The position numbers and the translations under genes are program-made. Below the pieces are notes generated by a model, which saw nothing but the letters and a program-made list of their open reading frames with translations, had not been told where the DNA came from and did no database searches. This document shows positions 5,304 to 29,601 of a stretch of 37,082 bases of DNA, one piece after another. The first letter of the stretch is position 1; each line of letters begins with the position of its first letter. This DNA is from Spirochaetales bacterium (GTDB lineage: Bacteria > Spirochaetota > Spirochaetia > Sphaerochaetales > Sphaerochaetaceae), in assembly GCA_012514185.1 (NCBI GenBank), contig JAAZAT010000061.1, forward strand, positions 1 through 37,082, written 5' to 3'.

Positions 5304-5380
5304 ACTACAACCATGGACGAACAAAAGGTTGCTGTCAAGTAAGTGCTCCTATGCTATAGTGGGCAAGCAGGAGGAAGCAG

Positions 5381-12725: not shown

Positions 12726-14012
12726 ATGGAAGAAATCCGCTTGAGCAGGACCTATACCCGTGAGGACCGGAGACAGTACGTTCGCATCCCCTTCCAGGTA
12801 GGGGAAGATATCCAACGTATTGAGATAACCTATGCCTATGAACGCCATCAGGTACGGCAAACCGCCTTTGGACAGGAGATGAGGGAGATCAACATCATCG
12901 ACCTGGGGCTGTTCGATGAGAACGGGCAGCTGTGTGGCTGGTCGGGCTCTGAGCGGCTTTCCATCGCAGTGAGTGAACAATCCAGCACTCCAGGATACCG
13001 AAGACTTCCGATCAAGAGCGGAACCTGGCAGGTTGCCTTGGGAATCTACAAGGTTCAGTCCAGCGTAGAGGTCCACTTGGTTATCCGCCTCATTCCCAAA
13101 GAGAGGCGTTGGCTGAAAGGCGATCTGCACATGCATACCCTCAACAGCGACGGCATCTACACTACAGGGGAAGTCATCAGCTACGCAAAGCATGCAAAGC
13201 TGGATTTCATCGCCCTCACCGACCACAACAACACCGAGCAGAACAGGGAAATAGGCAATCCGGAGGGGATTACCGTTATAGCGGGGATGGAATACACCAA
13301 CTACGGCGGGCACGCAAACTTCTTCTTTACCGATGAGGGAATCTTTACCGCCGATCCACTCTCCAATACCAGGGAAGAGATGCAAGCTACCGTGGATGAA
13401 GCAAAAAAGAGAGGTGCCATCGTTTCGCTGAACCATATCTGCGACACCTCCTGCCCGTGGGTCCTGGGCTTTGACATTCCCTACGACCTGATTGAAGTCT
13501 GGAACGGCCTCCCCAAGCCTTCAGACATGGAGGCGATTGCATGGTGGCACCAAAAGCTGGTGGAGGGCAGGCATTTGGCAGCCGTTGGAGGTTCCGATAC
13601 CCATCGAATCGAGCAGGGTCGCAGTCATGGGACTCCCACCACGTATGTCTACGCACGCTCATCCGGTCGCAAGGACATCCTCGATGCCTTGGTGGAAGGA
13701 CGGTCGTTCATCACCGCTTCATCAGACGGGACCCGGCTGGATCTGCACCTCGGGACCTCAGGGTTGGGAGAGTGTGCTCTCTGGGATGAACAGCTTGGGG
13801 GACAGGCCTCTGTTGACAGGGCAAAGCAGGGCGATCGCTTGGTGCTTATCAGTGACAGGGGCATCGAAGCGACCTGGGACATTGTTGACGAGGGCAGGCT
13901 CGCCTTTCCATTCAAGGTGGAGAAACGAAAGTTTTACCGAATCGAGCTCTATCGAAGAACCCTTGGAATAGAACTGCTTGCAGCCCTTACAAACCCTGTC
14001 TACCTGCGTTGA
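12726..14012 (+). CDS. PHP-domain metallohydrolase (CehA/McbA type)
   Basis: A 428-residue protein. Residues 1-130 form a beta-rich N-terminal domain ahead of a PHP phosphoesterase-like domain (about 135-340). PHP metal motifs are present in order: GDLHMHTLNSDG (HxH), ALTDHNNT (DH), GMEYTNYGGHANFF, LNHICD and GGSDTHR. The CehA/McbA group includes an ester hydrolase and microcin B processing protein, so the family does not fix the reaction; a phosphodiester or ester attached to a sugar is possible. The start has AGGAAA 6 bases upstream. Placement after a binding protein and terminator suggests it processes the substrate brought in by ABC system A at lower expression. Its end overlaps the convergent LacI gene by 13 bases. 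Confidence 0.85.
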   Translation: MEEIRLSRTYTREDRRQYVRIPFQVGEDIQRIEITYAYERHQVRQTAFGQEMREINIIDLGLFDENGQLCGWSGSERLSIAVSEQSSTPGYRRLPIKSGTWQVALGIYKVQSSVEVHLVIRLIPKERRWLKGDLHMHTLNSDGIYTTGEVISYAKHAKLDFIALTDHNNTEQNREIGNPEGITVIAGMEYTNYGGHANFFFTDEGIFTADPLSNTREEMQATVDEAKKRGAIVSLNHICDTSCPWVLGFDIPYDLIEVWNGLPKPSDMEAIAWWHQKLVEGRHLAAVGGSDTHRIEQGRSHGTPTTYVYARSSGRKDILDALVEGRSFITASSDGTRLDLHLGTSGLGECALWDEQLGGQASVDRAKQGDRLVLISDRGIEATWDIVDEGRLAFPFKVEKRKFYRIELYRRTLGIELLAALTNPVYLR

Positions 14013-15001
14013 GCAGTGGAATCACGCTGAACAAACGTGAACGGCAGGGCTATGCTCACCGGCAGGCCGTTCTTGCTGGTGATCAAAGAGTGCAGCAGCG
14101 CTACCGACATCTGCCCCATCTCTACAATCGGCTGGCTGATGGTGGTCAAGCGGGGGACGGAGAACGAGGAGAGCTCGATATTGTCAAAGCCGACGACTGA
14201 AACATCGCCGGGAACGCTGAGGTTGTGATCGGCCAGGCCGCGGATCGAGCCGAGAGCAAGCTCATCGGTGATGGCAAACAGTGCAGTAAAGGTGGCCTTT
14301 GAATCCAGCAGCTGGTTCAATGCCTTGGCTCCTCCTTCCATGTTGTACACATCGGCAAAGGCAACCTTGCTTGCATCATAGGGGATCGAAGCCTGCTCAA
14401 GCGCCTTGCGGTACCCCTCCAGCCGTTGGGATGAAAAGCTGTATTTGGTTCCTCCGATGCAGGCGATATCGCGATGGCCGAGCTTGATCAGGTGGCTGAC
14501 CGCCTGCAACGCAGCTTCATCCTCACTGATATGGATCGAGGTGGCCTTCCACCCATCCCTCTCGAAGGTGGCAAGCACGGTCGGAATCTTATTCTCTTCC
14601 AAGTAGGTGCGAAACTCTGGCAGCGCCACCTCATGCAAGATGATGAGGCCGTCCAGCCGGTCCGCCTTCAAGCGCCTGAGACATGCCAGTTCCCCTTCCT
14701 CGTCGGTGGAGGCAAAATAGAAGCTGGTATGGTAGCCGAACTGCTCCAGATGGTGTACCACGATGCTGAACAGCTGGCGTTGGAACATGTTGAACATGCC
14801 CGGAAGCACGATGCCGACGGTGGATGTATGCTTGCTGACCATATCGCGGGCGGCGCGATTGGGAACATAGCCGGTCTGCTTGATCGCAGCAAGGATACGC
14901 TCACGCTTGTCAGCCTTGACGTTATCCTGATGGTTGAGCACTCGGGAGACTGTGGAAACAGAGACTCCTGCCAATTTTGCTATGTCCTTGATACTTATCA
15001 T
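14000..15001 (-). CDS. LacI family transcriptional regulator, probable iol operon repressor
   Basis: A 333-residue LacI/GalR regulator. The N-terminal helix-turn-helix reads IKDIAKLAGVSVSTVSRVLN and the hinge contains YVPNRAARDMV, followed by a periplasmic-binding-protein-like effector domain (GIVLPGMFNMF, then VVGFDNIELSSFSVPRLTT near the end). ATG 15001 is preferred to the in-frame GTG at 15007 because AGGGA lies 7 bases upstream. It is divergent from iolG, and the shared region contains two AACGTT-centred palindromes of the kind bound by LacI proteins, one in front of each gene. An inositol-derived inducer is therefore likely. This is not the DeoR-type IolR of Bacillus. Confidence 0.93.
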   Translation of the reverse strand: MISIKDIAKLAGVSVSTVSRVLNHQDNVKADKRERILAAIKQTGYVPNRAARDMVSKHTSTVGIVLPGMFNMFQRQLFSIVVHHLEQFGYHTSFYFASTDEEGELACLRRLKADRLDGLIILHEVALPEFRTYLEENKIPTVLATFERDGWKATSIHISEDEAALQAVSHLIKLGHRDIACIGGTKYSFSSQRLEGYRKALEQASIPYDASKVAFADVYNMEGGAKALNQLLDSKATFTALFAITDELALGSIRGLADHNLSVPGDVSVVGFDNIELSSFSVPRLTTISQPIVEMGQMSVALLHSLITSKNGLPVSIALPFTFVQRDSTAQRR

Positions 15002-15018
15002 ATTCACATCCCTATGCT

Positions 15019-15030
15019 GAGAACGTTGTC
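15019..15030. promoter_or_regulatory. Predicted LacI-family operator (lacI side)
   Basis: GAGAACGTTGTC is an imperfect palindrome around a central CG, close to the LacI-family consensus. It lies 18 bases before the regulator's start codon and would give autoregulation. Confidence 0.55.
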
Positions 15031-15092
15031 ACAAATGCATCATGCCACCTCCGCAATTACTTTGTCAAATGGATTCACCCAGGCGAAATTTC

Positions 15093-15120
15093 TTTACAAA
15101 CATACGCTATGTTGTATACT
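15093..15120 (+). promoter_or_regulatory. Promoter of the iol operon
   Basis: TTTACA (15093-15098) and TATACT (15115-15120) are separated by 16 bases. This predicts a transcription start near 15127, just before the downstream operator. Confidence 0.7.
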
Positions 15121-15130
15121 CAAAGAAACT

Positions 15131-15142
15131 GGTAACGTTTTC
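15131..15142. promoter_or_regulatory. Predicted LacI-family operator (iolG side)
   Basis: GGTAACGTTTTC is a palindrome around a central CG. It falls about 4-15 bases after the predicted transcription start, a position where bound repressor would block initiation. Together with the copy at 15019-15030 the half-site consensus is G(A/G)(G/C/A/T)AAC. Confidence 0.6.
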
Positions 15143-15170
15143 ATAAAATAAGAAGAGAGGAGAATCTTTC

Positions 15171-16205
15171 ATGGATACAATCGTAAGAATCGGAATTATC
15201 GGAGCCGGGCGAATCGGCAAGCTGCATGCAGAGAATATCACAAAATTCGTGAAGTCGGTGGAGGTGGTGGGTATCAGCGATGTCCTGATGAATGAGCAGA
15301 TGGAAGCTTGGGCGAAGGACTTGGGAATCCGGTTTGTCACCAAGGAAGCCATGGATTTGATCAAGCACCCTGACATCGACGCCATCATGGTCTGCAGTTC
15401 CACTGCAACCCATGCCGACTTTACCATTGCAGCTGCAAAGGAAGGCAAGCACATCTTCTGTGAGAAGCCGATTGACTTGTCAGTAAAGAAAGGTTTGGAA
15501 GCCATCAAGGCAGCCAAGGCTCATAAGGTAAAACTACAGCTCGGTTTCAACCGCCGCTTCGACCACAATTTCCGTCAGGTAAGAGAGCTGACCAAGGCCG
15601 GCAAAGTCGGAGATGTCCACATTGTGAAGATCACCAGCCGCGACCCGGCTCCCCCGACAGCCGCATATGCAGCAGTTTCGGGTGGTATTTTCCTCGACAT
15701 GATGATTCATGACTTCGATATGGCCCGCTACCAAGCCGGCAGCGAAATCGTCAGCGTCCATGCGACCGGTGCAGTCTTGGTCAATCCGGAGATTGGAAAA
15801 GCCGGGGATGTAGACACCGCCATCGTCACGCTCACCTTCGAAAACGGAGCGATCGGGGTCATCGACAACTCCCGCAAGGCGGTCTATGGTTACGACCAGC
15901 GTGTTGAAGTGTTCGGCTCCAAAGGCTGTGCAAAGGCTGAGAACGACACCCCGTCGACCGTGTCCCTCTCCACCAGTGAGCATGTCGCCTCCGACAAGCC
16001 CCTCTACTTTTTCCTGGAGCGGTACAAGGATGCTTTTGTGGATGAGGTTGTCTCCTTCGCCCAGGCAATCGTTGAAGATACCGACGTATTGGTCAGCGGA
16101 GAAGACGGACTTGAGGATATGGTCGCAGCCCTTGCCGCAGGCAAGAGCCTGAAGGAAGGCCGACCGGTGACCATAGCCGAGATGAAGAAAGAGCTCGGGC
16201 TCTAA
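15171..16205 (+). CDS. iolG: Inositol 2-dehydrogenase (Gfo/Idh/MocA family)
   Basis: A 344-residue NAD(P)-dependent dehydrogenase that should oxidise myo-inositol to 2-keto-myo-inositol (scyllo-inosose). The Rossmann motif GIIGAGRIGKLHAENI opens the protein; the catalytic set of the family is complete with Lys99 in CEKP, and Asp176 and His180 in GGIFLDMMIHDFD. RRFDHNF is typical of IolG-type enzymes. GAGAGGAGA precedes the ATG. It is the first gene of a six-gene plus-strand operon, followed by iolD after a 10-base gap, which makes inositol (rather than another polyol) the likely substrate. The stereoisomer specificity cannot be read from the sequence. Confidence 0.9.
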   Translation: MDTIVRIGIIGAGRIGKLHAENITKFVKSVEVVGISDVLMNEQMEAWAKDLGIRFVTKEAMDLIKHPDIDAIMVCSSTATHADFTIAAAKEGKHIFCEKPIDLSVKKGLEAIKAAKAHKVKLQLGFNRRFDHNFRQVRELTKAGKVGDVHIVKITSRDPAPPTAAYAAVSGGIFLDMMIHDFDMARYQAGSEIVSVHATGAVLVNPEIGKAGDVDTAIVTLTFENGAIGVIDNSRKAVYGYDQRVEVFGSKGCAKAENDTPSTVSLSTSEHVASDKPLYFFLERYKDAFVDEVVSFAQAIVEDTDVLVSGEDGLEDMVAALAAGKSLKEGRPVTIAEMKKELGL

Positions 16206-16215
16206 GGAGATGCGC

Positions 16216-18081
16216 ATGGCAACGATTCGACTGACAATGGCGCAAGCCCTGCTGCGCTTTTTGGACAACCAATACCTATGGTTCGATGGGGAGGAGACTA
16301 AATTCGTCGAAGGCGTCTTCGGCATCTTCGGCCACGGCTGTGTGGTAGGCATTGGGGAGGCACTTGCTGATGAGCAGAACAAGCTGCCCTTCTACCAGGC
16401 AAAGAACGAACAAGGAGCGGTCCATGCAGCCACTGCGTTCGCCAAGGAGCACAACAGGAGAAAAATCATGGCGGTAACCAGCTCCATCGGCCCTGGAGCG
16501 TCGAACATGGTCGTGGGTGCCGGTACGGCTACCGCAAACCACATTCCGGTGCTCCTGCTTCCCGGTGATGTCTTCGCTTCCCGCCAGCCCGACCCCGTAT
16601 TGCAGCAAATTGAGATTCCGACCGATTACTCCAACACTGCCAACGACGCATTCCGCTCGGTATCACGATACTGGGACCGGGTGAACCGTCCTGAACAGCT
16701 GATGAGCGCCCTGATCAATGCGATGCGGACCCTCACCGATCCCGCAGAAACTGGTGCAGTGACCATAGCCCTCCCCCAGGATGTCCAGGGCATGGCCTAT
16801 GACTACCCCCTCGAGTTCTTTGCCAAGCGGGTGCACTATGTTGAACGAAGAATCCCAACCCCCTTCCAGCTCGACCGGCTTGCCAAGCTGATCGCCAAGG
16901 CAGAAAAACCCTTGGTCATCTGCGGCGGCGGTGTACGATACAGCGAAGCCGGGGATGCGTTGGCCGCTTTCTGTGAACGGTTTGCCATCCCCTTCGCCGA
17001 AACCCAGGCCGGCAAAGGGACAGTCCTTTGGGACAACCCATACAACCTCTCGGGTATCGGGACCACCGGCAGCCAGGCGGCGAACCGCTTGGCCAAGCAG
17101 AGTGACCTGGTCATCGGGGTGGGAACCCGTTTTGGTGACTTCACCACCTGTTCGAAGTGGCTCTTCCAGAACCCGGCCTGCGAGTTTATCTCGATCAACG
17201 TTGCGTCCTTCGATGCCTATAAGCTCAACAGCCTTCCCATCGTCGCCGATGCCAAACTCACCTTGGAAGCTTTGCTCTCTCAGCCTCAGCTCTCCGGCTA
17301 CAAGAGTGGTTGGGGCGAGACGATTGAGACGGAACGAAACCTGTGGAAAGAAGAGGTCGACCGGCTCTATCAAGAAGTTGTTCCCTCTTCGCTCTCCCAG
17401 GCACGCGTGCTCGGCGAACTCAACGACCGCCTGCTTCCACCCTCGGCCATCGTGGTTTCAGGCTCCGGCTCGATTCCCAGCGACATGCAAAGGGTATGGA
17501 GAACCCGGGTGCGGGGAACCTATCACATGGAGTATGCATTCTCCTGCATGGGCTACGAGGTGGCGGCGGCTCTCGGAACCAAGATTGCCCACCCTGACCG
17601 TGAAGTAGTGACCATCATCGGCGATGGCGCCTACACCATGCTGCACACCGAGCTGCTCACCTCCATCCAGGAAGGCAGGAAGATCATCGTAGTGGTGTTG
17701 GACAATGCCGGTTTTCACTGCATCGACAACCTGCAAAACAGCCAGGGCATCGTCCATTACGGCAATGAGTGGAGGCGGCGCGAGAAGGAGACCGGCCGTT
17801 TGACCGGGTCCTCACTGTCGGTCGACTACGCCCTCAATGCACAGAGCTGGGGTGCGGTGGGCCTGAGAGCGGATACCATCGAGGAGTTGGAACAAGCTGT
17901 GAAGCAGGCTCTGGCCGAGAAGGTCTCGACACTTATCCACTGCCACGTGGCTCCCAAATCCATGACCAAGGGGTACGACTCCTGGTGGCGGGTGGGGACT
18001 GCAGAAGTTTCAAACAACCCCAAGGTGGTTGAAGCCTGGACCGAATTGCAATCAGAGATTGCAAAGGTACGACAATTCTAA
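16216..18081 (+). CDS. iolD: 3D-(3,5/4)-trihydroxycyclohexane-1,2-dione hydrolase
   Basis: A 621-residue thiamine-diphosphate enzyme, close in length to Bacillus IolD (about 637). It cleaves the cyclic diketone of the inositol pathway to open-chain 5-deoxyglucuronate. IolD-specific features include [31 protein letters not shown] and the activating Glu65 in [10 protein letters not shown]. The TPP motif is GDG (469-471) with Asn497 in [13 protein letters not shown] 16216 is preferred to ATG 16210 because the AAGGAG site abuts the latter. It lies between iolG and iolE, so the first three steps are encoded together. Assignment is firm and anchors the operon to inositol. Confidence 0.93.
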
Positions 18082-18094
18082 AAAGGAACAGAGT

Positions 18095-18988
18095 ATGAGC
18101 AAAGAAACCATAAAACTTGCAATCGCCCCGATAGGATGGACCAATGACGACCTTCCCCAGCTCGGAGGCGATATCACTTTTGAACAATGCGTCAGCGAGA
18201 TGGCCCTTGCCGGATTTACCGGCAGTGAAGTGGGCAATAAATACCCCAAGGACACCGAGGTGCTCAAGAAGGCACTGAAGCTCAGGGGCCTTCAGATTTG
18301 CAACGCCTGGTTCAGCACGTATCTGACCACCCAAAGCTACGATCAAGTGGAGAAAGCGTTTGTACAGCACTGCACCTTCCTCAAGACCATGGGGGCGACC
18401 ATCGTTGGTGTTGCCGAACAGGGCAACTCCATCCAAGGCCGACAAGACCTGCCGGTGTTCGATGCAAAGCCGGTCAATACAGAGGCAGAGTGGAAACTTC
18501 TGACCGAAGGGCTGAACAAGCTCGGCAAAAAGGCCAAGGAGATGGGAATGCAGCTCACCTACCACCACCACATGGGAACCGGGGTGCAGACCAGAGGTGA
18601 AATCGACCGCCTTATGGAACAAACCGACCCTGATCTGGTGGGCCTGCTCTATGACAGCGGCCACCTGGTATTCAGCGGAGAGGATCCGATGGAGGTGCTG
18701 ACCAAGTGGATGGGCCGCATCCGTCACGTACACCTCAAGGATGTGCGCGCCGACAAGCGCAAGATGGCCATCGAGCAGAAGTGGTCATTTCTGAAGGGAG
18801 TCCTGGAGGGTGTGTTTACCGTTCCCGGCGATGGTTGCATCGACTTCAAACCGATTCTCGATGAACTGATCAAAGCCGGGTACAAAGGCTGGTGGGTGGT
18901 TGAAGCCGAGCAGGACCCTGCAAAAGCCAACCCCCTCGAGTATGCAATGAAGGCACGGGCCTATATCCGAAATACTGCGGGAATCTAA
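18095..18988 (+). CDS. iolE: Inosose dehydratase
   Basis: A 297-residue TIM-barrel protein of the sugar phosphate isomerase/epimerase (AP endonuclease 2-like) superfamily. IolE signatures are strong: [19 protein letters not shown] at the start, [14 protein letters not shown], and late metal ligands in [18 protein letters not shown] and [12 protein letters not shown]. It should dehydrate scyllo-inosose to the cyclohexane-1,2-dione that IolD cleaves. AAGGAA lies 6-7 bases before the ATG; an upstream frame extension into iolD was discarded. The next gene starts 11 bases downstream. Confidence 0.93.
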
Positions 18989-18999
18989 GGAGAACCAAC

Positions 19000-20034
19000 A
19001 TGAACAAAATCAAAGTCGGCGTAGCCGGATACGGAGTAATTGGACAGCGTCTTGCTGACGGAGTCGCCCTGCAGGGTGACATGGAACTGATCGGGGTTGC
19101 CGATGTCGCCCCAACACTCAGTGTACGGGCCTTGAAGGAAAAGGGCATGCCCTACAAGTTCTTTACCGCCGCGCCGGACAACACTGCAGCCCTTGAGGCC
19201 GTGGGGATTCCCATCAGCGGCACGCTTGAGGACCTGGTGAAGCAGGTGGACATCATGCTCGATGCCACCAGTGCCGGGGTTGGACTGAAGAACAAGGAAA
19301 TCTATAAGAAGTACGGAAAAAAGGCCATTTTCCAAGGCGGGGAGAAGAACGCAATCGCCGATGTATTCTTCCACGGCTATGCCAACTACGAGAAAGGTCT
19401 GGGTGTCGACTACTTGAAACTCACCAGCTGCAATACCACCGGTCTCATTCGTGCAGTGGACTGCATCGATCGTGAAGTCGGGGTGGAAAAGGTTGCCATC
19501 ACCATCATCCGCCGCGTAGCCGACCCCGGCGACTATCACCGCGGCCTGACCAATGCCCTGCAGATCGACAAGGCTCCCAGCCACCAGGCTGTCGACTTGA
19601 TGACCATCATGCCGCATGTTGAGGCTACCGGCATCCTCGTGCACACCCCGGTAACCCATGGGCATATCATCACCGTCGTCATGACACCTAAAAAGGACAT
19701 CTCGGTTGACCAAGCCATCGCCATATTCGAGAAGCATCCCAGGATTCGGGTGGTCTCCATCGATGAGGGCTTCTTGGGCAACGCGAGCCTCTTTCGGTAT
19801 GCCCGCGACCTCGGCAACCCCCGCGGGGACATGTATGAGATCGCCCTGTGGAAGGACTCGGTGGTCAAGAGCGGCAGGGACCTGATGTTCGCCATCAACA
19901 TCCCCCAAGAGTCGGTGGTGATCCCTGAGAACATCGATGCCGTACGCGCTGCCATGCAGATGCAAAAGGACCGGACGAGCGGGACCGAGGCAACCAACAC
20001 CTATCTGGGGATTGGAACATGGAAGAAACAGTAA
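19000..20034 (+). CDS. Type II (archaeal-type) glyceraldehyde-3-phosphate dehydrogenase homologue
   Basis: A 344-residue phosphorylating-aldehyde-dehydrogenase homologue. The Rossmann motif VGVAGYGVIGQRLADGV is archaeal-GAPDH-like, and the thiol site is SCNTTGL with Cys144. Arg171-Arg172 and Asp175 (RRVADPGD) and His195 in PSHQ match the phosphate-binding and acid-base positions of the family; the C terminus, ESVVIPENIDAVRAAM, is also canonical. Two differences stand out: the loop normally read as GPxNAxxP is GLTNALQID, and Asp35 (GVAD) replaces the basic residue that favours NADP, suggesting NAD. Bacterial glycolytic GAPDH is type I, so this is a second, specialised enzyme. In this operon I infer that it converts the aldehyde of 5-deoxyglucuronate to an acyl phosphate. 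AAGGAG precedes the ATG. Confidence 0.88.
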   Translation: MNKIKVGVAGYGVIGQRLADGVALQGDMELIGVADVAPTLSVRALKEKGMPYKFFTAAPDNTAALEAVGIPISGTLEDLVKQVDIMLDATSAGVGLKNKEIYKKYGKKAIFQGGEKNAIADVFFHGYANYEKGLGVDYLKLTSCNTTGLIRAVDCIDREVGVEKVAITIIRRVADPGDYHRGLTNALQIDKAPSHQAVDLMTIMPHVEATGILVHTPVTHGHIITVVMTPKKDISVDQAIAIFEKHPRIRVVSIDEGFLGNASLFRYARDLGNPRGDMYEIALWKDSVVKSGRDLMFAINIPQESVVIPENIDAVRAAMQMQKDRTSGTEATNTYLGIGTWKKQ

Positions 20035-20036
20035 AC

Positions 20037-21302
20037 ATGATCCGCATGAGAAGCCTCGATGATGTTGAGCTGAAGGGAAAATTCGTACTGTTCCGCCCTG
20101 ACATCAACAGCCCCATCGATCAGGCAACCAAGAAAATCATCAATACAAACCGCCTTGAAAAGGCAGCGCCCACCCTCACGCATTTGCTTGAGGGAGGGGC
20201 AAAGGTAGCCATCATCGCCCACCAAGGCGATACCTTGGACTACCAGAACCTCATTCCGCTCTCCGAGCATGCACGCATCCTTTCAGACCTGAGTGGGTAT
20301 CCAGTCAGGTATTTGGATGATGTATGCGGTCCGGCGGCTATCGAGGCGGTCAAGACGTTGAAGGAAGGCGAAGCGGTGCTTCTGGGAAACCTTCGGTATC
20401 TGAGTGAGGAAATCACCGCCTTCGAGAAGGAAGTGAAGCTGACACCACAAGAGATGCAGAACACCTATCTGGTGCGCTCGCTCGCCCCCCTCTTTGACCT
20501 CTATGTCAACGACGCCTTTGCCGCCGCCCATCGAAGCAGCCCTTCCATGGTTGCATTCCAGGAAGTGCTGCCTACTGCAGGCGGCAGACAGCTGGTGGCC
20601 GAGTACACCGCCCTCTCCAACGTTGCGTCACATCCCATCCATCCCTGCATCTTTGTTCTTGGCGGGGGAAAAATCAGCGATGCCTTTGGCATGATGAAGC
20701 ATGTCTTGGCCAACAATACCGCCGATAAGATCCTGTGCGGCGGCATCACAGCCTTGGTCATGCTGCTCGCTCAAAACAAGGAGCTTGGGCAGAAAACCAG
20801 GACATTCCTCCAGGACCGCGATCTGACACACTTCATCGATGAGGCCCGGGAGCTGCTCACCATATGGCCCGACCGTTTTGTCACCCCCATCGACCTTGCC
20901 TACGAGCAGGACGGTGAGCGCCTTGAGGTTGATGTATCGGACATTGTCGGTAGTGCTGAACTGCAGGCAAAACTCTTCCCCGACCTGGGCAGCAAGAGTA
21001 TCGAGCTGTACAAGACAGAGATTGCCAAGGCGGGCTCGGTCTTTGTTAACGGGCCGGCCGGCGTCTACGAGGACGGCAGGTGGGAGAAAGCAACCAAGGA
21101 GATTTGGAATGCAATCGCAGCATGCAAAGGCTACACCGTCATCGGCGGCGGCGACACCATCACAGCAGCCACCAAGTTCACCAATCTTGAGGATTACTCC
21201 TATGTCTGCACCGCAGGAGGCGCAATGGTGCGCTTCCTTTCTGGGAAGAAACTTCCCCTCATCCAGGCAATGGAGAAGGCTTGGGAGCGAGACAAGGAGT
21301 AA
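20037..21302 (+). CDS. Archaeal-type phosphoglycerate kinase homologue
   Basis: A 421-residue two-domain kinase fold that looks archaeal rather than bacterial: LFRPDINSPID near the N terminus, YVNDAFAAAHRSSPSMV, VLGGGKISDAFGMMKHVL, and the nucleotide-site GPAGVYED with GGGDT. Key residues Arg20, Asp22, Asn24, His62, Arg120 and Arg166 are kept. The conserved Arg of the 3-phosphate patch (SHLGRP in bacteria, AHQSRP in archaea) is Asp65 here (AHQGDTLD), a charge reversal. So phosphoryl transfer from an acyl phosphate to ADP should work, but 3-phosphoglycerate is an unlikely ligand. Start at ATG 20037 is chosen by family alignment; an in-frame ATG at 20019 overlaps the previous gene. larA-like follows at +3. 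Confidence 0.88.
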   Translation: MIRMRSLDDVELKGKFVLFRPDINSPIDQATKKIINTNRLEKAAPTLTHLLEGGAKVAIIAHQGDTLDYQNLIPLSEHARILSDLSGYPVRYLDDVCGPAAIEAVKTLKEGEAVLLGNLRYLSEEITAFEKEVKLTPQEMQNTYLVRSLAPLFDLYVNDAFAAAHRSSPSMVAFQEVLPTAGGRQLVAEYTALSNVASHPIHPCIFVLGGGKISDAFGMMKHVLANNTADKILCGGITALVMLLAQNKELGQKTRTFLQDRDLTHFIDEARELLTIWPDRFVTPIDLAYEQDGERLEVDVSDIVGSAELQAKLFPDLGSKSIELYKTEIAKAGSVFVNGPAGVYEDGRWEKATKEIWNAIAACKGYTVIGGGDTITAATKFTNLEDYSYVCTAGGAMVRFLSGKKLPLIQAMEKAWERDKE

Positions 21303-21305
21303 GCC

Positions 21306-22562
21306 ATGCAGGTGAGCATCCCGTACAACAAGAATGAGCAGGTACTGCTGGGCATCGACAATGAGCTGTTGCTCGGCATCTACGAGCCCAATGCAATTCC
21401 CTCCCTTGGCCCTCAAGAGGCCTTGCTCCAAGAGCTGGGAGACAAACTAGAGGCCTTCTTGGGAAGTGCATCAAGCGTTCTGGTAATTATCAACGATGCC
21501 ACCCGCCCCACCCCTACCCGCGCCATGCTCAGTGCACTAGTACCCTGTTTTGAGAAAGCAGGCATCAGTGATGACAATCTGTTGCTTCTGGTTGCAACCG
21601 GAGCCCACCGTCCGGTGAAGCAGGATGAACTTGATCAACTGCTCGGCCCTTTCAAACAGCGGCTTTCGCCCAGATTGGTCAGTCATGAAGCAAAGGATGA
21701 GAAGAGCCTGGCAAGGATCGGGGTGACACGCAACGGAACCCCGATCCTGCTGAACAAGCTGCTCTTTGCCTATGACCGCATCGTTGTGACCGGCAGTGTC
21801 GAACCCCACTACTTTGCAGGCTTCACCGGAGGTCGGAAAGCCTTCCTCCCGGGCATCGCCGGCTACGAGACCATTGTGGCGAACCACAAACTCGCCGTCA
21901 GTGATGAGGCCCGCTCCTTAGCGCTCGAAGGCAATCCGGTCCACGAGGATATGATGGATGCACTCTGTCATATCAAGGCTCCCGTATTCTCACTGATGAC
22001 CGTCTTGGACAAGGAGCAGAATGTAGTTGCGGCAACCGGCGGAGACATCATCGAAAGCTTTGAGAAAGCGGTGGCGATTGCAAGGAAGGTATTCTGCGTA
22101 CCGATTCCCCAAAAGGCCGATATCGTGGTCTCAATTGCCAAGTTCCCTATGGATATCAATCTCTATCAGTCTCAGAAGGCCATCGACAACGGCGCTCTTG
22201 CCGTCAAGGACGGAGGTACGCTGATTCTGGTCTCTGCATGCAGGGAAGGGATTGGCGACCAAGAGTTCGCCGACCTGCTGGACTCTTGCAGTTCTCCTGA
22301 TGAAGCCTTGCAAGTAATCGACAAGACCTACAAGCTCGGCTATCACAAGGCAGCAAAAATGGCATCGGTCTGCAAACGCATGAAGGTATTGGCATATACC
22401 ACATTGGCCGACCGTCAGGTCGCCTCCCTCTTTCTTGAGCCGGTGGCAGACCTGCAGGCAGCCTTGGATGGTGCGATTGCCGAAGCAAGGGCAAAAGGAA
22501 TAGAAAAACCTTCCGTCATCCTGCTCCCTGACGGTTGCGTTACCGTACCGACTCTGGAGTGA
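21306..22562 (+). CDS. LarA-family nickel-pincer alpha-hydroxyacid racemase/epimerase
   Basis: A 418-residue LarA (DUF2088) homologue. All characteristic active-site residues are found with the right spacing: Asp64 and Arg67 in NDATRPTP, His101-Arg102 in TGAHRP, His168 in VEPHYF, Lys178 in GGRKAF (the residue that carries the pincer nucleotide in lactate racemase) and His194 in VANHK. It should therefore interconvert the configuration of an alpha-hydroxy carboxylate using the nickel-pincer cofactor; LarB, LarC and LarE, needed to make that cofactor, are not in the window. In the operon I infer that it epimerises the hydroxy acid formed by the GAPDH/PGK homologues, not lactate. Its ribosome site AAGGAG lies in the end of the kinase gene. 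The last 23 bases overlap the convergent AraC gene. Confidence 0.9.
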   Translation: MQVSIPYNKNEQVLLGIDNELLLGIYEPNAIPSLGPQEALLQELGDKLEAFLGSASSVLVIINDATRPTPTRAMLSALVPCFEKAGISDDNLLLLVATGAHRPVKQDELDQLLGPFKQRLSPRLVSHEAKDEKSLARIGVTRNGTPILLNKLLFAYDRIVVTGSVEPHYFAGFTGGRKAFLPGIAGYETIVANHKLAVSDEARSLALEGNPVHEDMMDALCHIKAPVFSLMTVLDKEQNVVAATGGDIIESFEKAVAIARKVFCVPIPQKADIVVSIAKFPMDINLYQSQKAIDNGALAVKDGGTLILVSACREGIGDQEFADLLDSCSSPDEALQVIDKTYKLGYHKAAKMASVCKRMKVLAYTTLADRQVASLFLEPVADLQAALDGAIAEARAKGIEKPSVILLPDGCVTVPTLE

Positions 22563-23562
22563 GCAGTTCCTTCTTCTTTACCGCCCGGTATTCATCCTCG
22601 CTCTGCAACGCCTTTGAAGGCGTTGCATCGGTGTTGCGTTCAGGGTCCAGGGAACGAAGCAACTTCTCGGAACGGTGATCGCTGTTCTTGCGGAATTCAG
22701 AGGGTGTCACGCTGCAGAACTTGGAAAACACCCGGTTGAATTGACTGAACGAGGAGAATCCACACTGCTCGCAGATGTCCTTTATTTTCAAAGAAGAGTA
22801 AAGAAGCAACTGCTGTGCATTCTTCACCCTGATCTGCTGCAGATAGCTTACAAAGTTCAACCCTGTAACCCGCTTGAATTGGTGCGACAGATAAAACGAA
22901 CTGACCGTGAAATAGTCAGCGACATGTTGCAATCGCAGCTCCTCGGAGAAATGGGTGTGCAGATAGCTGGTCACCTCATAGATTTTCTGCGTGATGGAAT
23001 CAGTAATCTCTTGCTTGGTATAGGTATTTGCTTTCCTATTGATGAAAAGAAGCCACAACAGCTCGACAAACTTGTTGTGAATCATCAACTCATAGCCGAC
23101 CCTCAGCTCATTTCCCAGGATGTATATGGCATTGAACAAGTCCACAATCTTCATCTGGATCTCCAAGGGGAACCGAAAGATTGGAGGTTGCTGTTCAAAG
23201 ATGGTGAACAACCGCTTGAGCTGACGCTCCAAACCCGGCATCACATCGGGAAAACGAAAGGCCACGATGAGACGTGCCTTCGGATCCTCACCTTTCGGAT
23301 ACATGGTCATATGCAGGCATGAAGGCTTGAGCAAGACCAGGTCATACCGCTGCAAGCTGAAGTACTCCCCTTCAATAATATGGCTGGCATGGTCGTCGAC
23401 CAAGAAGAAGAGCTCATAAAAGTCATGGAAGTGCTGGAACTCCATATTCATGGAATCAGACCGCACCCCATAGTCGAATACATAGAACAACGGGCTTCTG
23501 TCATTGTTGACGGTAATTGAGAAATCTGGCCTGAATACCAATCGCTTATCCCATTGTTCCAT
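22540..23562 (-). CDS. AraC family regulator, paralogue A, last gene of system B operon
   Basis: A 340-residue regulator with a cupin sensor (MNMEFQHFHDFYELFFLVDD, then IIEGEYFSLQRYDLVLLKP) and a C-terminal double helix-turn-helix (ICEQCGFSSFSQFNRVFSKF). It is a close paralogue of the protein at 33640-34635: long identical stretches such as IIEGEYFSLQR, TDSITQKIYE and CGFSSFSQFNRVF, and both carry a charged C-terminal tail beyond the DNA-binding domain containing DPERN. It lies 42 bases downstream of the GH105 gene and is probably co-transcribed with it. No clear ribosome site is seen before ATG 23562, but the paralogue has the same N-terminal length. A perfect 9-bp inverted repeat lies in its 3' coding region. 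Confidence 0.9.
   Translation of the reverse strand: MEQWDKRLVFRPDFSITVNNDRSPLFYVFDYGVRSDSMNMEFQHFHDFYELFFLVDDHASHIIEGEYFSLQRYDLVLLKPSCLHMTMYPKGEDPKARLIVAFRFPDVMPGLERQLKRLFTIFEQQPPIFRFPLEIQMKIVDLFNAIYILGNELRVGYELMIHNKFVELLWLLFINRKANTYTKQEITDSITQKIYEVTSYLHTHFSEELRLQHVADYFTVSSFYLSHQFKRVTGLNFVSYLQQIRVKNAQQLLLYSSLKIKDICEQCGFSSFSQFNRVFSKFCSVTPSEFRKNSDHRSEKLLRSLDPERNTDATPSKALQSEDEYRAVKKKELLTPESVR
22604..22627. other. Perfect inverted repeat downstream of the iol operon
   Basis: TGCAACGCC and GGCGTTGCA form a 9-bp stem around a 6-base loop, 41 bases past the larA-like stop and inside the convergent AraC coding region. No T-run follows in either direction, so factor-independent termination is unproven, but it could form the 3' end of the iol transcript. 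The AraC paralogue encodes different residues at this spot. Confidence 0.5.
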
Positions 23563-23604
23563 AAAGTGACGATACAGGGCATTCGACCGGTTTGCAAGGG
23601 TGGA

Positions 23605-24687
23605 TCACCCTTGTATTTCCATCAGGAACAGCATTGCAAGTGCTTGCCCGTAAGGCATCGGCCTGAGCGGTATTTCCTTGTAGAAATTCTTGCTCTCCCG
23701 TCCCATGGGCGTCCCATAGGAGACCTGCTGAACCACTCCGTTCTCGTCCACAACAGCAAGCAGTGCTTGCAATGCCTTGTCCGAGATAGCACAGTATGAT
23801 CGGTCCAACAACCCCATGTTCACCGCCTTAAGGATTCCGTATCCGAACCCGCAGGTCGCACTGCTCTCCAAGTAGCTGGTCGGGTCGTCCAACACGGTAT
23901 GCCACATTCCGCTCTCATCCTGCAATGCAGAGAGGGCTTTGATCTGACGGACCAAGACAGTCTTCAGGTAACGGCTGACTGAGTCGGGGACCTCCACCAT
24001 TTCAAGGAATATCGGAATTGCGATGGTAACCCAGCAATTGCCCCTTCCCCAAAAAGCCTCACTGAAATGATGTCTTCCCTCGAACGTCCAGCCATGGTAC
24101 CAAAGCCCGCTCTTCACATCGCATAGATACTCGATATGCAGCAAAAATTGGTAGACGGCCTCATCGATATACTCCTGCCTGCCGAGAATCCGCCCCATAT
24201 TTGCGACCGCCAGGACAGTCATCATCAAGGTATCGTCCCAGAGCTCGCCGGGATTCTCATCATCGGTGGTACGATGCTGGAAGCCGCCTTCCTCCGTTCG
24301 GTCCAAACCACCTTTCATCACCCATTCAACCCATTCGATGGCTATATCCAGATACGCTTGCTTGTTTGTGTATTCAGCAAGAAAGGAGAGAGCCAGGATG
24401 GGAGCCATGGTATTGACGTTCTTGCCCGGCAGACCCTGCTCGATGCGCTGGTCATAGTACTGCGTCAGGATATCCAGGTAGCGCTTCTCCCCGGTCTTCT
24501 CGAACAACTTCCAGAGTCCGAAGAGCCCGACACCATGCGGCCACTCCCAAAATTGGTAGAGCTTGCGCTGTACATCATCAATTGCACCCGCCAATTTATG
24601 GGAGGCATAGTCAGGATCATCAGGTGCATAGAGCACCGGCAAAAACCCGGCAACCAACTTCTTCAAGGTCTCATCCACTTCTCGCAT
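23605..24687 (-). CDS. GH105 unsaturated uronyl hydrolase
   Basis: A 360-residue (alpha/alpha)6-barrel protein without signal peptide, matching the YteR/YesR-type GH105 family in length and motifs. The catalytic Asp is in GELWDDTLMM (151-152), with the aromatic and glycine loop WGRGNCW (213-219) and SYLESSATCGFGYGI later. Such enzymes hydrate and release a terminal delta-4,5-unsaturated uronic acid produced by a polysaccharide lyase, in the cytoplasm after import. It starts with GAGGAGA 5-6 bases upstream and follows the GH38 gene by 9 bases. The pairing with an alpha-mannosidase points to an uronyl-mannose substrate rather than rhamnogalacturonan (inference). Confidence 0.88.
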   Translation of the reverse strand: MREVDETLKKLVAGFLPVLYAPDDPDYASHKLAGAIDDVQRKLYQFWEWPHGVGLFGLWKLFEKTGEKRYLDILTQYYDQRIEQGLPGKNVNTMAPILALSFLAEYTNKQAYLDIAIEWVEWVMKGGLDRTEEGGFQHRTTDDENPGELWDDTLMMTVLAVANMGRILGRQEYIDEAVYQFLLHIEYLCDVKSGLWYHGWTFEGRHHFSEAFWGRGNCWVTIAIPIFLEMVEVPDSVSRYLKTVLVRQIKALSALQDESGMWHTVLDDPTSYLESSATCGFGYGILKAVNMGLLDRSYCAISDKALQALLAVVDENGVVQQVSYGTPMGRESKNFYKEIPLRPMPYGQALAMLFLMEIQG

Positions 24688-24696
24688 GACATCTCC

Positions 24697-27600
24697 TCAT
24701 TCATCGTCCAAGACAAGTTCCACACTCATAATCTCATGACCTTTCATTGCAATTTCCACAGACTGGGCAGTAATGGGCAGTTGTTCCAATCGCTGTTCGA
24801 TCAGATTGCAAATCCACGCCTGTTTGACGGCAAGCGGGAAATGAAGCGTGAATCTCCCATCCCTGCCGGCCATACTGATCAAGCGGAGGATGAGCGACGG
24901 CCGCTCTTCACACTTCTTTATGGTCTCGATCACCACCCCCGCCGGATCCACCTTGGCCAAGGAGAATTGACCGGCAAACAAGCCGGTTGCCTGATGTGAA
25001 CGCTCGGCTACCAGGCTTTGGTGAAGGGCGTACCCCTCTTCGATCACCTTGCCTTGCTCATAGCCGCCTTCATGGGGCAAAAGAGCGTAGCAGAAGTCGT
25101 GAGCACCCCTATCGGCTGTTGGGTTGGGATAGGTGGGAGCGCGAAGCAGGGAAAGCTTCAGCACATTGCCCTTGGCCGAGTACCCATACGACTGTCGGCT
25201 GAGCAGGGCAACCCCATGGGTTTTCTCACTGAGGTCCACCCACTTATGCGCCGGCACCTCGAACTGCACCTCGTCCCAACTGGTGTTGGCATGGGTGGTT
25301 CGTTCACACACCCCGTAGGCAATGTCATAGGAAGCCCTAGGTGATCGGACATCGACGGAGAAGGCGGTGCGAAGCATCAGGTGGTCCTCACGCCAATCTA
25401 CATGGAGATTGAAATCGATGCGCTTGCTGTGGGCATGGAACGTAATCTGCTGAGAATACGTCGACTTGAGCCAGGTCCATGTTGCTTCAAGGGTTATACC
25501 GAGCTCTGAACAGGAGCGTACACGGTAGTGCACCTCACTGTCCAAGGCATACTGCATCACAACACCCTGCTTGCCGATATTCCACGCGTCGAACTGGCTG
25601 GGATGATCGACAGCAAGGCTGAAGACGTTGCCCCGCCCGTCTTTTGCGAGCACGTCCCGCCCCTGCTGCTTGTCGTACAGATGTACAAGAGAACCATCAT
25701 CGGCAAAAACCACTTCGTAGTAGGGAGTGCTGAGTTTTGGTTCATTCCACTTGAACGGAGGTTCCATTTTGATCTCTTGACTACCCAAGCGATACCGCTT
25801 CCACCCCTTGGACGGCACCTTACAGGCAATGAAAGAGAGTGTTGAGCCTTGCTTGGCTGAAGGAAGGCGCCTGCCTTGTTCGTCATGGATGCTGCAACAT
25901 GAAGCCGATTCAATACTGCATACATCACTGCGCTCAAAATCCAGGGTATTGAAAACCAGTACGTCCTCGGCACTCTCCGCGATGCGGGAAACCAAAAAAG
26001 TGCGGGCACGCCGCCCTGCTTCATCGAAGGTGTCCGCAACCTGCTGCAGCTGGGGTATGGTTGTCTCATAGACTTCCCGGATGCAAGAACCAGGAAGGAT
26101 GTCGTGAAATTGATTGAGGGCCAGCAGCTTCCAAGCTTGCTCGAAGCTCTGGTGAGGATACTGCTGTGTTGCATCCAAAGCCCAAGCAAGAGCACAGAAA
26201 AACTCCGAAGCAAAAGCCTTTTGTTCGCACAGCCGGTTGAGCCGTTTAACTTCAGCCATCGTTGTATAGGTGCCACGATGGTACTCAAGGTACAGCTCTC
26301 CTTCCCAGACAGGAGGAGATTGCACCTCTTCCTTGGCTTTATCCAAGAAAGCCCGGACTGTACTGCTGTACGTCTTGGGAAGGCCGGGAAGGCCCTCTTT
26401 CATTCTCTGATGGTTCTCGAGCATCTGCTTGGTCGGGCCCCCTCCACCATCACCGTAGCCGTAGAGATGGAGGTTCGAGAAGCAAAGCTCTTTGTCCTGG
26501 AACCGCTGACGGGTGCCGAGAATCTGACTGGGCGTGAGCACCCCGTTGTAGGTTGTCTCGTTGCTGGTCTTCTTCGGATAGGAGCCAAGACTCTCATAGT
26601 CGGTGGTGCTGACCAAATAACTGAATATCCGGCTGCCGTCCAATCCTTGCCAGGCAAAGACGTCGTGGGGGAATCGATTGGTCTCATTCCAACCGAGCTT
26701 GGTGGTGACAAAGGAGGAGATGCCTGCACCCTTCATAATCTGCGGCAGGGTCGCCGGGAAGCCGAAACAGTCGGGAAGCCAAAGAACCACACTGTCCTTG
26801 CCGTACTCCTGCTTCATCCATCGCTTGCCCCAATAGAACTGGCGGGCAAGCGACTCCCCGCTGGTGAGGATGGTATCGCTTTCGACCCACATCCCCCCTT
26901 CCACTTCCCATCTGCCCTCAGCAATCCTGGCCTTGATGCGTTCATACAGGGAGGGCATGTCAGCCTTGATGAAAGCAAGCAATTGCATCTGGCTTGAGCT
27001 GAACACATAGTCGGGATACTGCTCCATCAGCGAGAGCACAGTGCTATAACTGCGTATGCTCTTCTCCCGGGTTTGGTCGACTGTCCACAGCCATGCCATA
27101 TCGATGTGACTGTGTCCTGTTACAGCCACCTTGGCCGAAGAAGGTACTGAGAGAGAAGCAAGAACTTCATCAAAGACACCCCTCGCCCGCTTGAGCATCG
27201 GTACATCCTGCAACGCTTCGAGACTGGAGAAATCCACTGCCTTGACAGCCTCAATGCAAGCTTTGCAGAGAACAAGATATGCTTCACTGCCCGTTTCAAC
27301 CGTCATTGCCGTTTCATAGGCAAGATCCAGATCGTAGACAAAGGCCTCAAGCTCCTCGTTTGCCAGGTACATGCTGATGTCCAAGAATACGTCCTGCTTC
27401 TCGCTGGAAACGTAGGAGTAGAGCACCAACTCCACCTCTGCCTTGGGAGGAAGATCGACTTCGGTATGGCGGACATCCAAGCCACAGGAGAGCCTGTCGT
27501 CCAGGTAGACCAGAAATTGGGGGTTGTTGAAGTTCCAGATGTCTTGAGCCCCGGTTTCAACCTTCAAACGAACCTGCTTCCCAACCCAGGAGGTAGGAAC

Positions 27601-27819
27601 TTTCAGCACAGTCTTGAAGAGGGCATGGTACTCCTTTCCTCCATAGCCGCGGCTCTGGTCGAAAGGCAGCCAACCATCTGCTTCGTGACGCTTGTCCCAG
27701 TCATGATAACCACAGGGTTTATAGTGCAGATCCTGCACATCCACGCTCTTGCTATACCGGCTCTGCTTGAGTACCTGAAGCGGCCCCTGAACAAATAATT
27801 GGAGTTGTTGTTTTGTCAT
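24697..27819 (-). CDS. GH38 alpha-mannosidase
   Basis: A 1040-residue cytoplasmic enzyme with the domain order of class II alpha-mannosidases of the Ams1/MngB-like type: an N-terminal beta domain (1-225), the catalytic domain (from about 230), a three-helix bundle and long C-terminal beta domains. The zinc-binding motif is GHSHIDMAWLW (His236, Asp240 region) and the nucleophile is Asp350 in LWLPDCFGFPATLPQ. Another typical motif is YGDGGGGPTKQML. It should release alpha-linked mannose from imported oligosaccharides. The permease gene ends 9 bases upstream and the GH105 gene follows 9 bases after, so all are in one operon. Confidence 0.93.
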   Translation of the reverse strand: MTKQQLQLFVQGPLQVLKQSRYSKSVDVQDLHYKPCGYHDWDKRHEADGWLPFDQSRGYGGKEYHALFKTVLKVPTSWVGKQVRLKVETGAQDIWNFNNPQFLVYLDDRLSCGLDVRHTEVDLPPKAEVELVLYSYVSSEKQDVFLDISMYLANEELEAFVYDLDLAYETAMTVETGSEAYLVLCKACIEAVKAVDFSSLEALQDVPMLKRARGVFDEVLASLSVPSSAKVAVTGHSHIDMAWLWTVDQTREKSIRSYSTVLSLMEQYPDYVFSSSQMQLLAFIKADMPSLYERIKARIAEGRWEVEGGMWVESDTILTSGESLARQFYWGKRWMKQEYGKDSVVLWLPDCFGFPATLPQIMKGAGISSFVTTKLGWNETNRFPHDVFAWQGLDGSRIFSYLVSTTDYESLGSYPKKTSNETTYNGVLTPSQILGTRQRFQDKELCFSNLHLYGYGDGGGGPTKQMLENHQRMKEGLPGLPKTYSSTVRAFLDKAKEEVQSPPVWEGELYLEYHRGTYTTMAEVKRLNRLCEQKAFASEFFCALAWALDATQQYPHQSFEQAWKLLALNQFHDILPGSCIREVYETTIPQLQQVADTFDEAGRRARTFLVSRIAESAEDVLVFNTLDFERSDVCSIESASCCSIHDEQGRRLPSAKQGSTLSFIACKVPSKGWKRYRLGSQEIKMEPPFKWNEPKLSTPYYEVVFADDGSLVHLYDKQQGRDVLAKDGRGNVFSLAVDHPSQFDAWNIGKQGVVMQYALDSEVHYRVRSCSELGITLEATWTWLKSTYSQQITFHAHSKRIDFNLHVDWREDHLMLRTAFSVDVRSPRASYDIAYGVCERTTHANTSWDEVQFEVPAHKWVDLSEKTHGVALLSRQSYGYSAKGNVLKLSLLRAPTYPNPTADRGAHDFCYALLPHEGGYEQGKVIEEGYALHQSLVAERSHQATGLFAGQFSLAKVDPAGVVIETIKKCEERPSLILRLISMAGRDGRFTLHFPLAVKQAWICNLIEQRLEQLPITAQSVEIAMKGHEIMSVELVLDDE

Positions 27820-27828
27820 ACCAGCAGT

Positions 27829-29540: not shown

Positions 29541-29565
29541 ACCATACCTTGTTTCTTGCAACGAT

Positions 29566-29594
29566 GTCCGGGCTGCCAGGCAGGCAACCCGGAC
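29566..29594 (-). other. Intercistronic hairpin between binding protein and permeases
   Basis: On the minus strand, GTCCGGGTTGCC pairs with GGCAGCCCGGAC to form a 12-bp stem (one G-T wobble) with a 5-base loop. There is no U-run, so it is better read as an mRNA stabiliser for the binding-protein message, as found between malE and malF, than as a terminator. Confidence 0.7.
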
Positions 29595-29601
29595 AGAGAT
29601 G

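Follow-up and report, generated by a model that had tools for sequence, protein, structure and literature searches.

A spirochaetal myo-inositol operon with GAPDH, phosphoglycerate kinase and LarA homologues as part of a proposed transketolase-type route through malate

Introduction

In the canonical pathway, described for Anaerostipes (PMC8355322), myo-inositol is degraded by IolG, IolE, IolD, IolB, IolC and IolJ. Here we analyse a 37,082-nucleotide contig of a Spirochaetales bacterium of the family Sphaerochaetaceae (GenBank assembly GCA_012514185.1, contig JAAZAT010000061.1; the whole stretch is hereafter called the window), in which iolG, iolD and iolE are followed by genes for homologues of type II glyceraldehyde-3-phosphate dehydrogenase (GAPDH; gap2), phosphoglycerate kinase (PGK; pgk2) and LarA. 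Inositol use in this group resembles the canonical pathway in IolG, IolE and IolD, in an IolB-family protein and in the intermediates as far as 2-deoxy-5-keto-D-gluconate (DKG); unlike there, none of 22 family genomes has an IolC above cut-off, and transketolase, type II GAPDH, PGK and LarA take its place in the operons. We propose, with a probability of roughly three in four, that the operon is part of a transketolase-type myo-inositol route via malate, which would be a "carboxylate analogue" of the pentose phosphate pathway and glycolysis.

Parts of such a route have described counterparts. In the sulfo-transketolase (sulfo-TK) pathway for sulfoquinovose (SqwGH, PMC9594981), a transketolase likewise cleaves a ketose with a non-phosphate anion, and the ketol can go to glyceraldehyde 3-phosphate (G3P); there the anion is a sulfonate and the available sections of the source describe no GAPDH/PGK step on the freed aldehyde, whereas here it would be a carboxylate and the aldehyde an exact isostere of G3P. 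Malic semialdehyde is a natural intermediate of carnitine degradation, where it is oxidised enzymatically to D-malate (PMC11353897). By our own reading of the chemistry it is by constitution the aldehyde proposed here, and it leads in the same way through D-malate to pyruvate; the carnitine route differs in its NAD(P)-dependent dehydrogenase, for which the available sections of that paper describe no phosphorylation, and in its D-malate dehydrogenase, with no racemase needed. The synthetic malyl-phosphate pathway to 2,4-dihydroxybutyrate (PMC5481828) also links malyl phosphate and malate semialdehyde through a kinase and a phosphorylating dehydrogenase, and its authors stated in 2017 that neither those activities nor the intermediates had previously been reported. 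Unlike the route considered here, it is engineered, runs in the opposite direction, uses malate-4-semialdehyde (with the aldehyde beside CH2) and was built on aspartokinase and ASD templates.

As for the single enzymes, the malate racemase LarAH6/Mar2 of Thermoanaerobacterium (PMC7583248, PDB 6d6z) provides both the closest structure and the closest model to the window LarA, and a G-x-H-K signature is common to the two; the window protein nevertheless stays below the model cut-off (384 bits versus 500), and the available sections of PMC7583248 make no mention of inositol. The archaeal type II GAPDH and PGK (PDB 2czc, 1cf2 and 2cun) belong to the same sequence families as gap2 and pgk2 and share their catalytic Cys, His and Arg, whereas the window proteins are 37–43% identical to them, carry Asp instead of Lys at gap2 residue 35 and have replaced a phosphate-binding Lys/Arg of PGK with Asp.

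Results

Organization of the operon

The window genome (G000) comprises 2.76 Mb in 315 contigs and is 85.9% complete; the window is its contig C198. Six genes, all on the + strand at 15171-22562, make up the operon:

15171..16205, + strand: iolG, inositol 2-dehydrogenase (TIGR04380, 457 bits, cut-off 355)
16210..18081, + strand: iolD, trihydroxycyclohexane-1,2-dione hydrolase (TIGR04377, 899 bits, cut-off 715)
18095..18988, + strand: iolE, inosose dehydratase (TIGR04379, 424 bits, cut-off 290)
19000..20034, + strand: gap2, type II GAPDH homologue, proposed phosphorylating D-malic semialdehyde dehydrogenase (NF003251, 412.5 bits, cut-off 185)
20037..21302, + strand: pgk2, phosphoglycerate kinase homologue, proposed malyl-phosphate:ADP phosphotransferase (PF00162, 8.7e-98)
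21306..22562, + strand: larA homologue, proposed malate racemase (Lar_N and LarA_C; best model NF052593 LarAH6, 384 bits, cut-off 500)

The intergenic gaps are 4, 13, 11, 2 and 3 bases, with the ATG starts of iolE (18095) and pgk2 (20037) taken from the translations; longer upstream starts are also possible (20019 for pgk2). A first-pass annotation of the window had described this gene order with gaps of 2-13 bases, which is confirmed, and IolG, IolE, IolD and gap2 all exceed their NCBIfam equivalog cut-offs. Its label "archaeal-type" is fair for the GAPDH: four PDB sequences match gap2, all presumably of the archaeal type II kind. For the PGK the label captures a tendency only, the best PDB match being 2cun (262 bits, versus 191 for 1vpe) with 37% identity to both.

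Proposed route from myo-inositol to pyruvate

IolG, IolE, IolD and IolB together yield DKG: in the proposed route, the first three would convert myo-inositol to 5-deoxy-D-glucuronate and IolB would convert this to DKG. The latter matches D-xylulose 5-phosphate in its carbon skeleton and D-threo configuration, but has CH2-COO- where the sugar phosphate has CH2-OPO3. A transketolase would transfer the two-carbon ketol of DKG to an aldose phosphate, forming a ketose phosphate and freeing D-malic semialdehyde (OHC-CHOH-CH2-COO-), the carboxylate isostere of D-glyceraldehyde 3-phosphate. With phosphate and NAD, gap2 would turn this aldehyde into D-malyl phosphate and NADH; pgk2 would then form D-malate and ATP from D-malyl phosphate and ADP, LarA would convert D-malate to L-malate, and malic enzyme would yield pyruvate and CO2. 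Neither the IolC kinase nor the IolJ aldolase would be used, malonic semialdehyde would not be formed, and in the window genome IolB, transketolase and malic enzyme would be supplied from outside the operon. By Fischer projection, both hydroxyl-bearing carbons of DKG match those of D-xylulose and C4 of 5-deoxy-D-glucuronate gives D-malate, a product that would provide a role for a malate racemase. We infer the part of transketolase, gap2, pgk2, LarA and malic enzyme in inositol breakdown from sequence and gene context.

We favour carbon–carbon cleavage to malic semialdehyde and malate because IolB, a split transketolase, malic enzyme and a LarA with a malate signature occur in the loci. The idea of a transketolase and malate was derived from the IolB product before the neighbouring genes had been identified (their lengths were already known); the split transketolase and later malic enzyme were then found, the transketolase neighbours being identified first by eye and then by model.

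If the route is correct, inositol would provide ATP, NADH and malate without ATP being spent on a kinase, D-malyl phosphate would be a natural energy-rich intermediate, and both the energy yield and the product (malate, then pyruvate) would differ from those of the malonic semialdehyde pathway. A whole set of core glycolytic enzymes would have come to act on non-phosphorylated substrates, the malate racemase in an inositol operon would be explained, and the annotations "GAPDH", "PGK", "transketolase" and "lactate racemase" would mask function in a large set of bacteria. We think it likely that a natural "carboxylate glycolysis" exists in many Spirochaetes, Clostridia and Chloroflexi, with dedicated transketolase, GAPDH and PGK paralogues acting on carboxylate isosteres of xylulose 5-phosphate, G3P and 1,3-bisphosphoglycerate. 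Phytate, plants and lipids are sources of myo-inositol, which is plentiful in gut, soil and sediment environments. As the first-pass annotation had also stated for its own version, we found no account of such an inositol route in the open-licence literature (subscription journals and preprints were outside the scope). Among the matches listed for malic or malate semialdehyde and malyl phosphate, none concerned inositol by title, and the available sections of PMC12130570 treat transketolase and inositol separately.

Association of gap2 with inositol genes

To place the operon in its order, 139 genomes were searched for gap2 (E <= 1e-30) and iolD (E <= 1e-150). Each gene was found in 22 genomes, with all gap2 hits falling within the window's own family and 21 of the iolD hits above the model cut-off. 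Both occur together in 20 genomes, gap2 alone in two (G108, G022), iolD alone in two (G097, G104) and neither in 115, a pairing beyond chance (Fisher p = 7e-20, kinship ignored). As the contigs of G097 and G104 stop inside or directly after the inositol genes, the lack of gap2 there may be an assembly gap.

The gap2 neighbourhoods of 20 of the 22 family genomes (excluding G129 and the window genome) revealed an IolB-family gene in many iol clusters and, in several, split transketolase genes (tktN, tktC). Sphaerochaeta halotolerans (L079, G093) has the operon iolG-iolD-iolE-tktN-tktC-gap2-pgk2-larA; G113 carries the same tktN-tktC pair after iolE, with gap2-pgk2-larA ~10 kb beyond, and in G091 ~13 kb with transporter and dehydrogenase-like genes separate iolE from gap2. 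A second inositol cluster in G080 (L070) reads iolD-iolE-(Gfo/Idh/MocA oxidoreductase)-iolB-tktN-tktC, where the oxidoreductase is 30% identical to iolG and another iolG (51% identity) lies further upstream. The cluster of G106 consists of ABC-transporter-tktN-tktC-iolB-FGGY-kinase (L069:7105-14699).

Beyond the order, a scan of a species-level genome collection with a gap2 alignment returned at least 509 relatives, of which the best 80 loci were kept; this sample is skewed to relatives of the query, and contig ends cut many of its loci. By record title they come from Spirochaetes, Clostridia, Chloroflexi and Atribacteria, with two labelled Deltaproteobacteria. Their flanks contain gap2 in 78 cases, pgk2 in 78 (open reading frame filter), larA in 51, iolD in 35, iolE in 34, split transketolase in 33, IolB in 26 and malic enzyme in 23. 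Pyruvate-dehydrogenase-E1-like families 30 and 36 (L099, L115, L151, L153, L155, L156) were excluded from the transketolase counts, and all 24 neighbouring malic-enzyme proteins match both malic-enzyme Pfam domains. Thirty-six loci have iolD, or iolE with iolG, within the flank and are termed inositol loci; they include larA (28), IolB (26), split transketolase (25) and malic enzyme (10), with transketolase, larA and IolB all together in 16. In Clostridium magnum DSM 2767 (L101), a predicted operon near-complete for the proposed route runs in one direction as ribose-type ABC transporter-malic enzyme-gap2-pgk2-tktN-tktC-iolB-iolD-iolE-iolG-larA.

The same type of transporter (periplasmic protein, ATPase and permease; the members of L101 were scanned) stands just upstream of the inositol operons of four Clostridium loci (L096, L098, L100, L101) and is likely the inositol importer.

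Malate-racemase signature of LarA

The first-pass annotation had taken LarA for a 5-deoxyglucarate epimerase; its sequence points to malate. LarAH6 is the best match of the window LarA, and among the models matched it has the best E-value in all 25 LarA proteins scanned, with the C. magnum protein above the cut-off (585 versus 500). His or Gln and Lys at LarA positions 358/359 are usual for malate racemases (PMC7583248, PMC11770544), and the G-x-H-K signature is found in 52 of 52 LarA (51 neighbours and the window, where it reads G-Y-H-K). Lactate racemase (PDB 2yjg) has DQWE at the same place, with W-E at the H-K positions, and E-V-A-H is the pattern given for gluconate epimerases (PMC11770544). 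Residues D64, R67, H101, H168, K178, H194 and K291, which serve catalysis and cofactor binding, are invariant in 25 of 25 aligned proteins.

Substrate clues in gap2 and pgk2

The SCNTT cysteine of gap2 is kept in all 78 aligned neighbours. At residue 35, the Lys of the archaeal enzymes is replaced by Asp, which suggests NAD as the cofactor, since in type II GAPDH an Asp at this position goes with NAD use.

In PGK, the 3-phosphate of 3-phosphoglycerate (3PG) is bound by Arg65, Arg122 and Arg170 (PMC7729029). The Arg65 equivalent is Asp in the window protein (residue 71 counted from the 20019 start) and Asp, Ser or Gly in 63, 11 and 1 of the 75 aligned neighbours, respectively; it is Lys in 2cun, and the glycolytic PGK of the window genome still has Arg there (GRP). 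We therefore call pgk2 a PGK homologue and not a 3PG kinase. The two other 3-phosphate arginines are retained (Arg126 in 75/75 and Arg172 in 74/75, window numbering), as are the equivalents of Asp28, Asn30, Arg45 and His68 (75/75). Loss of the Arg65 equivalent fits a substrate with less charge at its far end than a phosphate, as judged from the alignment. A canonical gap-pgk pair is present in the window genome besides gap2 and pgk2, which makes the latter spare for glycolysis, and canonical GAPDH was also found in 9 of 12 tested genomes of loci whose flanks are free of inositol genes, larA, transketolase and malic enzyme (no-context loci).

IolB, IolC, transketolase and malic enzyme outside the operon

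A KduI/IolB-family gene is encoded by 21 of the 22 module-bearing family genomes; in 19, the window genome included, the match is strong (E below 1e-45) and is taken as probably of the IolB type. In the window genome, the PF04962 member lies on another contig (C283). Six matches to the transketolase N subunit (two on C145 and one each on C53, C235, C17 and C224) and a malic enzyme (C295) likewise lie outside the operon.

In G113 (L063:9180-10028) and G115 (L065:9885-10694), homologues of window 4620-5324 (-) and 5381-6157 (+) enclose an IolB-family gene; at this place (5325-5380), the window has just 56 bases.

IolC was above cut-off in none of the 22 module-bearing family genomes, the best match scoring 228 bits versus 300 (window genome 86% complete). 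This agrees with the first-pass view that the GAPDH/PGK/LarA set stands in place of the lower inositol pathway with no need for IolC. That annotation had named a full iolB-iolC-iolJ set elsewhere in the genome as evidence against it; no iolC came to light in the window genome at this completeness, and iolJ was not searched. Four sub-threshold IolC matches were inspected by eye in their surroundings, a set apart from those in G112 (221 bits) and G099 (202 bits). Three of the four stand beside a 2-keto-3-deoxy-6-phosphogluconate (KDPG)-aldolase-like gene; the other, on C76, has a regulator and a transporter of the same type next to it. The two candidates of the window genome, on C76 (210 bits) and C199 (201 bits), both have an IclR-type regulator and a tripartite-type transporter as neighbours, and C199 has a KDPG-aldolase-like gene as well; by eye we read both as 2-keto-3-deoxygluconate kinases and set them aside.

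Evaluation of the proposed route and its alternatives

Several observations weigh against the malate route. The window operon has neither transketolase nor IolB; both are encoded elsewhere in the genome, and the link to them is drawn from relatives. All eight IolB homologues scanned fall short of the IolB cut-off of 205, at 87-105 bits; the window genome's copy, whose sole NCBIfam match is IolB, stands at 87. The transketolase loop motif GSDPG...GGTHMP is common to other split transketolases and does not mark the operon enzymes. Within the flanks of the 36 inositol loci, larA is lacking in 8, transketolase in 11, IolB in 10 and malic enzyme in 26, and 44 of the 80 gap2 loci have no inositol genes in the flank; of these 44, 26 carry at least one of larA, transketolase and malic enzyme, and the remaining 18 carry none of them. 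The pgk2 Asp does not track the inositol context, as the same residue is found in 16 of 16 aligned PGKs from those 18 loci. Where gap2 of the inositol group departs from a residue shared by two archaeal enzymes, only positions 218 and 325 separate inositol from no-context loci; with just two weak positions, we make no substrate claim from gap2 alone. IolC is above cut-off in 2 of 22 genomes of a second set (Clostridium ganghwense and the genome of L128), so the kinase and transketolase routes may coexist.

Synthesis of the nickel-pincer cofactor of LarA raises a further objection. The window genome (85.9% complete) has no LarC and no LarE above cut-off, and the same is true of the single-contig genomes G091, G113 and G094, which carry larA; across the 22 module-bearing family genomes, LarC occurs in 4 (one partial) and LarE above cut-off in 3. 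In the other operon-bearing set, by contrast, 20 of 22 genomes have LarC. Where LarC and LarE genes are lacking, larA may depend on cofactor scavenging, another synthesis route or a different cofactor. For the window's lineage, this leaves a LarA with a scavenged or otherwise made cofactor or an idle racemase step. A variant of the malate route that either stops at D-malate or passes it on to a D-malate dehydrogenase, or else has LarA rely on scavenged cofactor, seems to us possible though rather doubtful. The intact catalytic and cofactor-binding residues of the window LarA argue for use.

The first-pass annotation had gap2, pgk2 and LarA act directly on 5-deoxyglucuronate, via 5-deoxyglucaroyl phosphate, to give 5-deoxyglucarate and ATP before any carbon–carbon cleavage and then the C2 epimer. 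That aldehyde does adjoin a hydroxyl, and in the window operon, without IolB and transketolase, iolD is followed only by iolE-gap2-pgk2-larA. The wider set of loci makes the proposal very unlikely: IolB, which would consume the aldehyde, is present in 26/36 inositol loci; transketolase (25/36) and malic enzyme (10/36) would be without a role and indicate that cleavage comes first; LarA shows the malate signature in 52/52 and not the gluconate-epimerase E-V-A-H (PMC11770544); and neither a 5-deoxyglucarate dehydratase nor an aldolase was seen among the annotated members (about half) of the 45 commonest neighbour families. Substrate-level ATP formation was right in outline, as it would come from GAPDH and PGK.

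A glycolytic role is also improbable, if less remote. Here gap2 and pgk2 would be ordinary enzymes from G3P to 3PG, co-regulated with inositol use and draining trioses from transketolase or the pentose phosphate pathway, with LarA and malic enzyme serving separate ends. Both families are named for G3P and 3PG, 18 of the 80 loci have none of the context genes in the flank, and 3 of 22 genomes examined have no canonical GAPDH, so that gap2 might serve glycolysis there. Against this stand the gap-pgk pair of the window genome, the canonical GAPDH in 9/12 no-context genomes tested and the loss of one of the three 3-phosphate arginines from pgk2 in 75/75; a malate-signature LarA and malic enzyme beside gap2-pgk2 would also go unexplained. 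Still harder to credit is an aldolase that cuts unphosphorylated DKG into dihydroxyacetone and malonic semialdehyde, from which gap2 and pgk2 would make malonate and ATP in place of IolA. It would retain IolB and need no IolC, yet no aldolase appears among the annotated neighbour families (about half of the 45 commonest), and transketolase, LarA and malic enzyme are again left without explanation. The usual GAPDH substrate, moreover, carries an alpha-hydroxyl, which malonic semialdehyde does not.

Control region

Upstream of iolG lie the following features:

14000..15007, - strand: LacI-family regulator, divergent from the operon (PF00356 and PF13377)
15018..15143, no strand: intergenic control region with palindromic sites and a promoter-like site (consensus matches only)

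A homologue of the LacI-family gene adjoins iolG in G113, G112, G094 and G099. The control region holds two 14-bp palindromes of the form TGnnAACGTTnnCA (judged by eye), namely TGAGAACGTTGTCA at 15018-15031 and TGGTAACGTTTTCA at 15130-15143, and between them a sigma-70-like promoter, TTTACA-16-TATACT, at 15093-15120. The first-pass claim of one LacI-controlled promoter is plausible in that palindromic sites flank the promoter-like site; the latter is weak on its own, the scan having found 4 promoter-like sites versus 3.0 expected from shuffles.

Other contexts of the module

Directly before gap2, G108 (L044:3959-10550) and G113 (L027:962-8679) carry transporter-tktN-tktC-FGGY kinase, the kinase of G108 being above the ribulokinase cut-off (497 bits versus 428); the same module may also be fed by a substrate other than inositol. 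In L151 and L155 (Acetobacterium) and L153 (a Firmicutes metagenome-assembled genome, MAG), gap2-pgk2-malic enzyme-larA stands beside pyruvate-dehydrogenase-type genes in a flank without inositol genes, which by gene content would tie the module to malate in a setting other than an inositol cluster. At seven loci of Clostridia MAGs (L111, L124, L126, L130, L138, L140, L150), gap2-pgk2 has an MsbA-like ABC transporter and FAD-dependent-oxidoreductase-like proteins as neighbours.

On the 3' side of larA (22540-30870, -), the window encodes an AraC-type regulator, a GH88-family protein, a 1040-aa protein and a sugar-type transporter set. The same genes also adjoin the gap2-pgk2-larA module in G091, G113, G115 and G093, and the region may be a glycan locus unrelated to the module.

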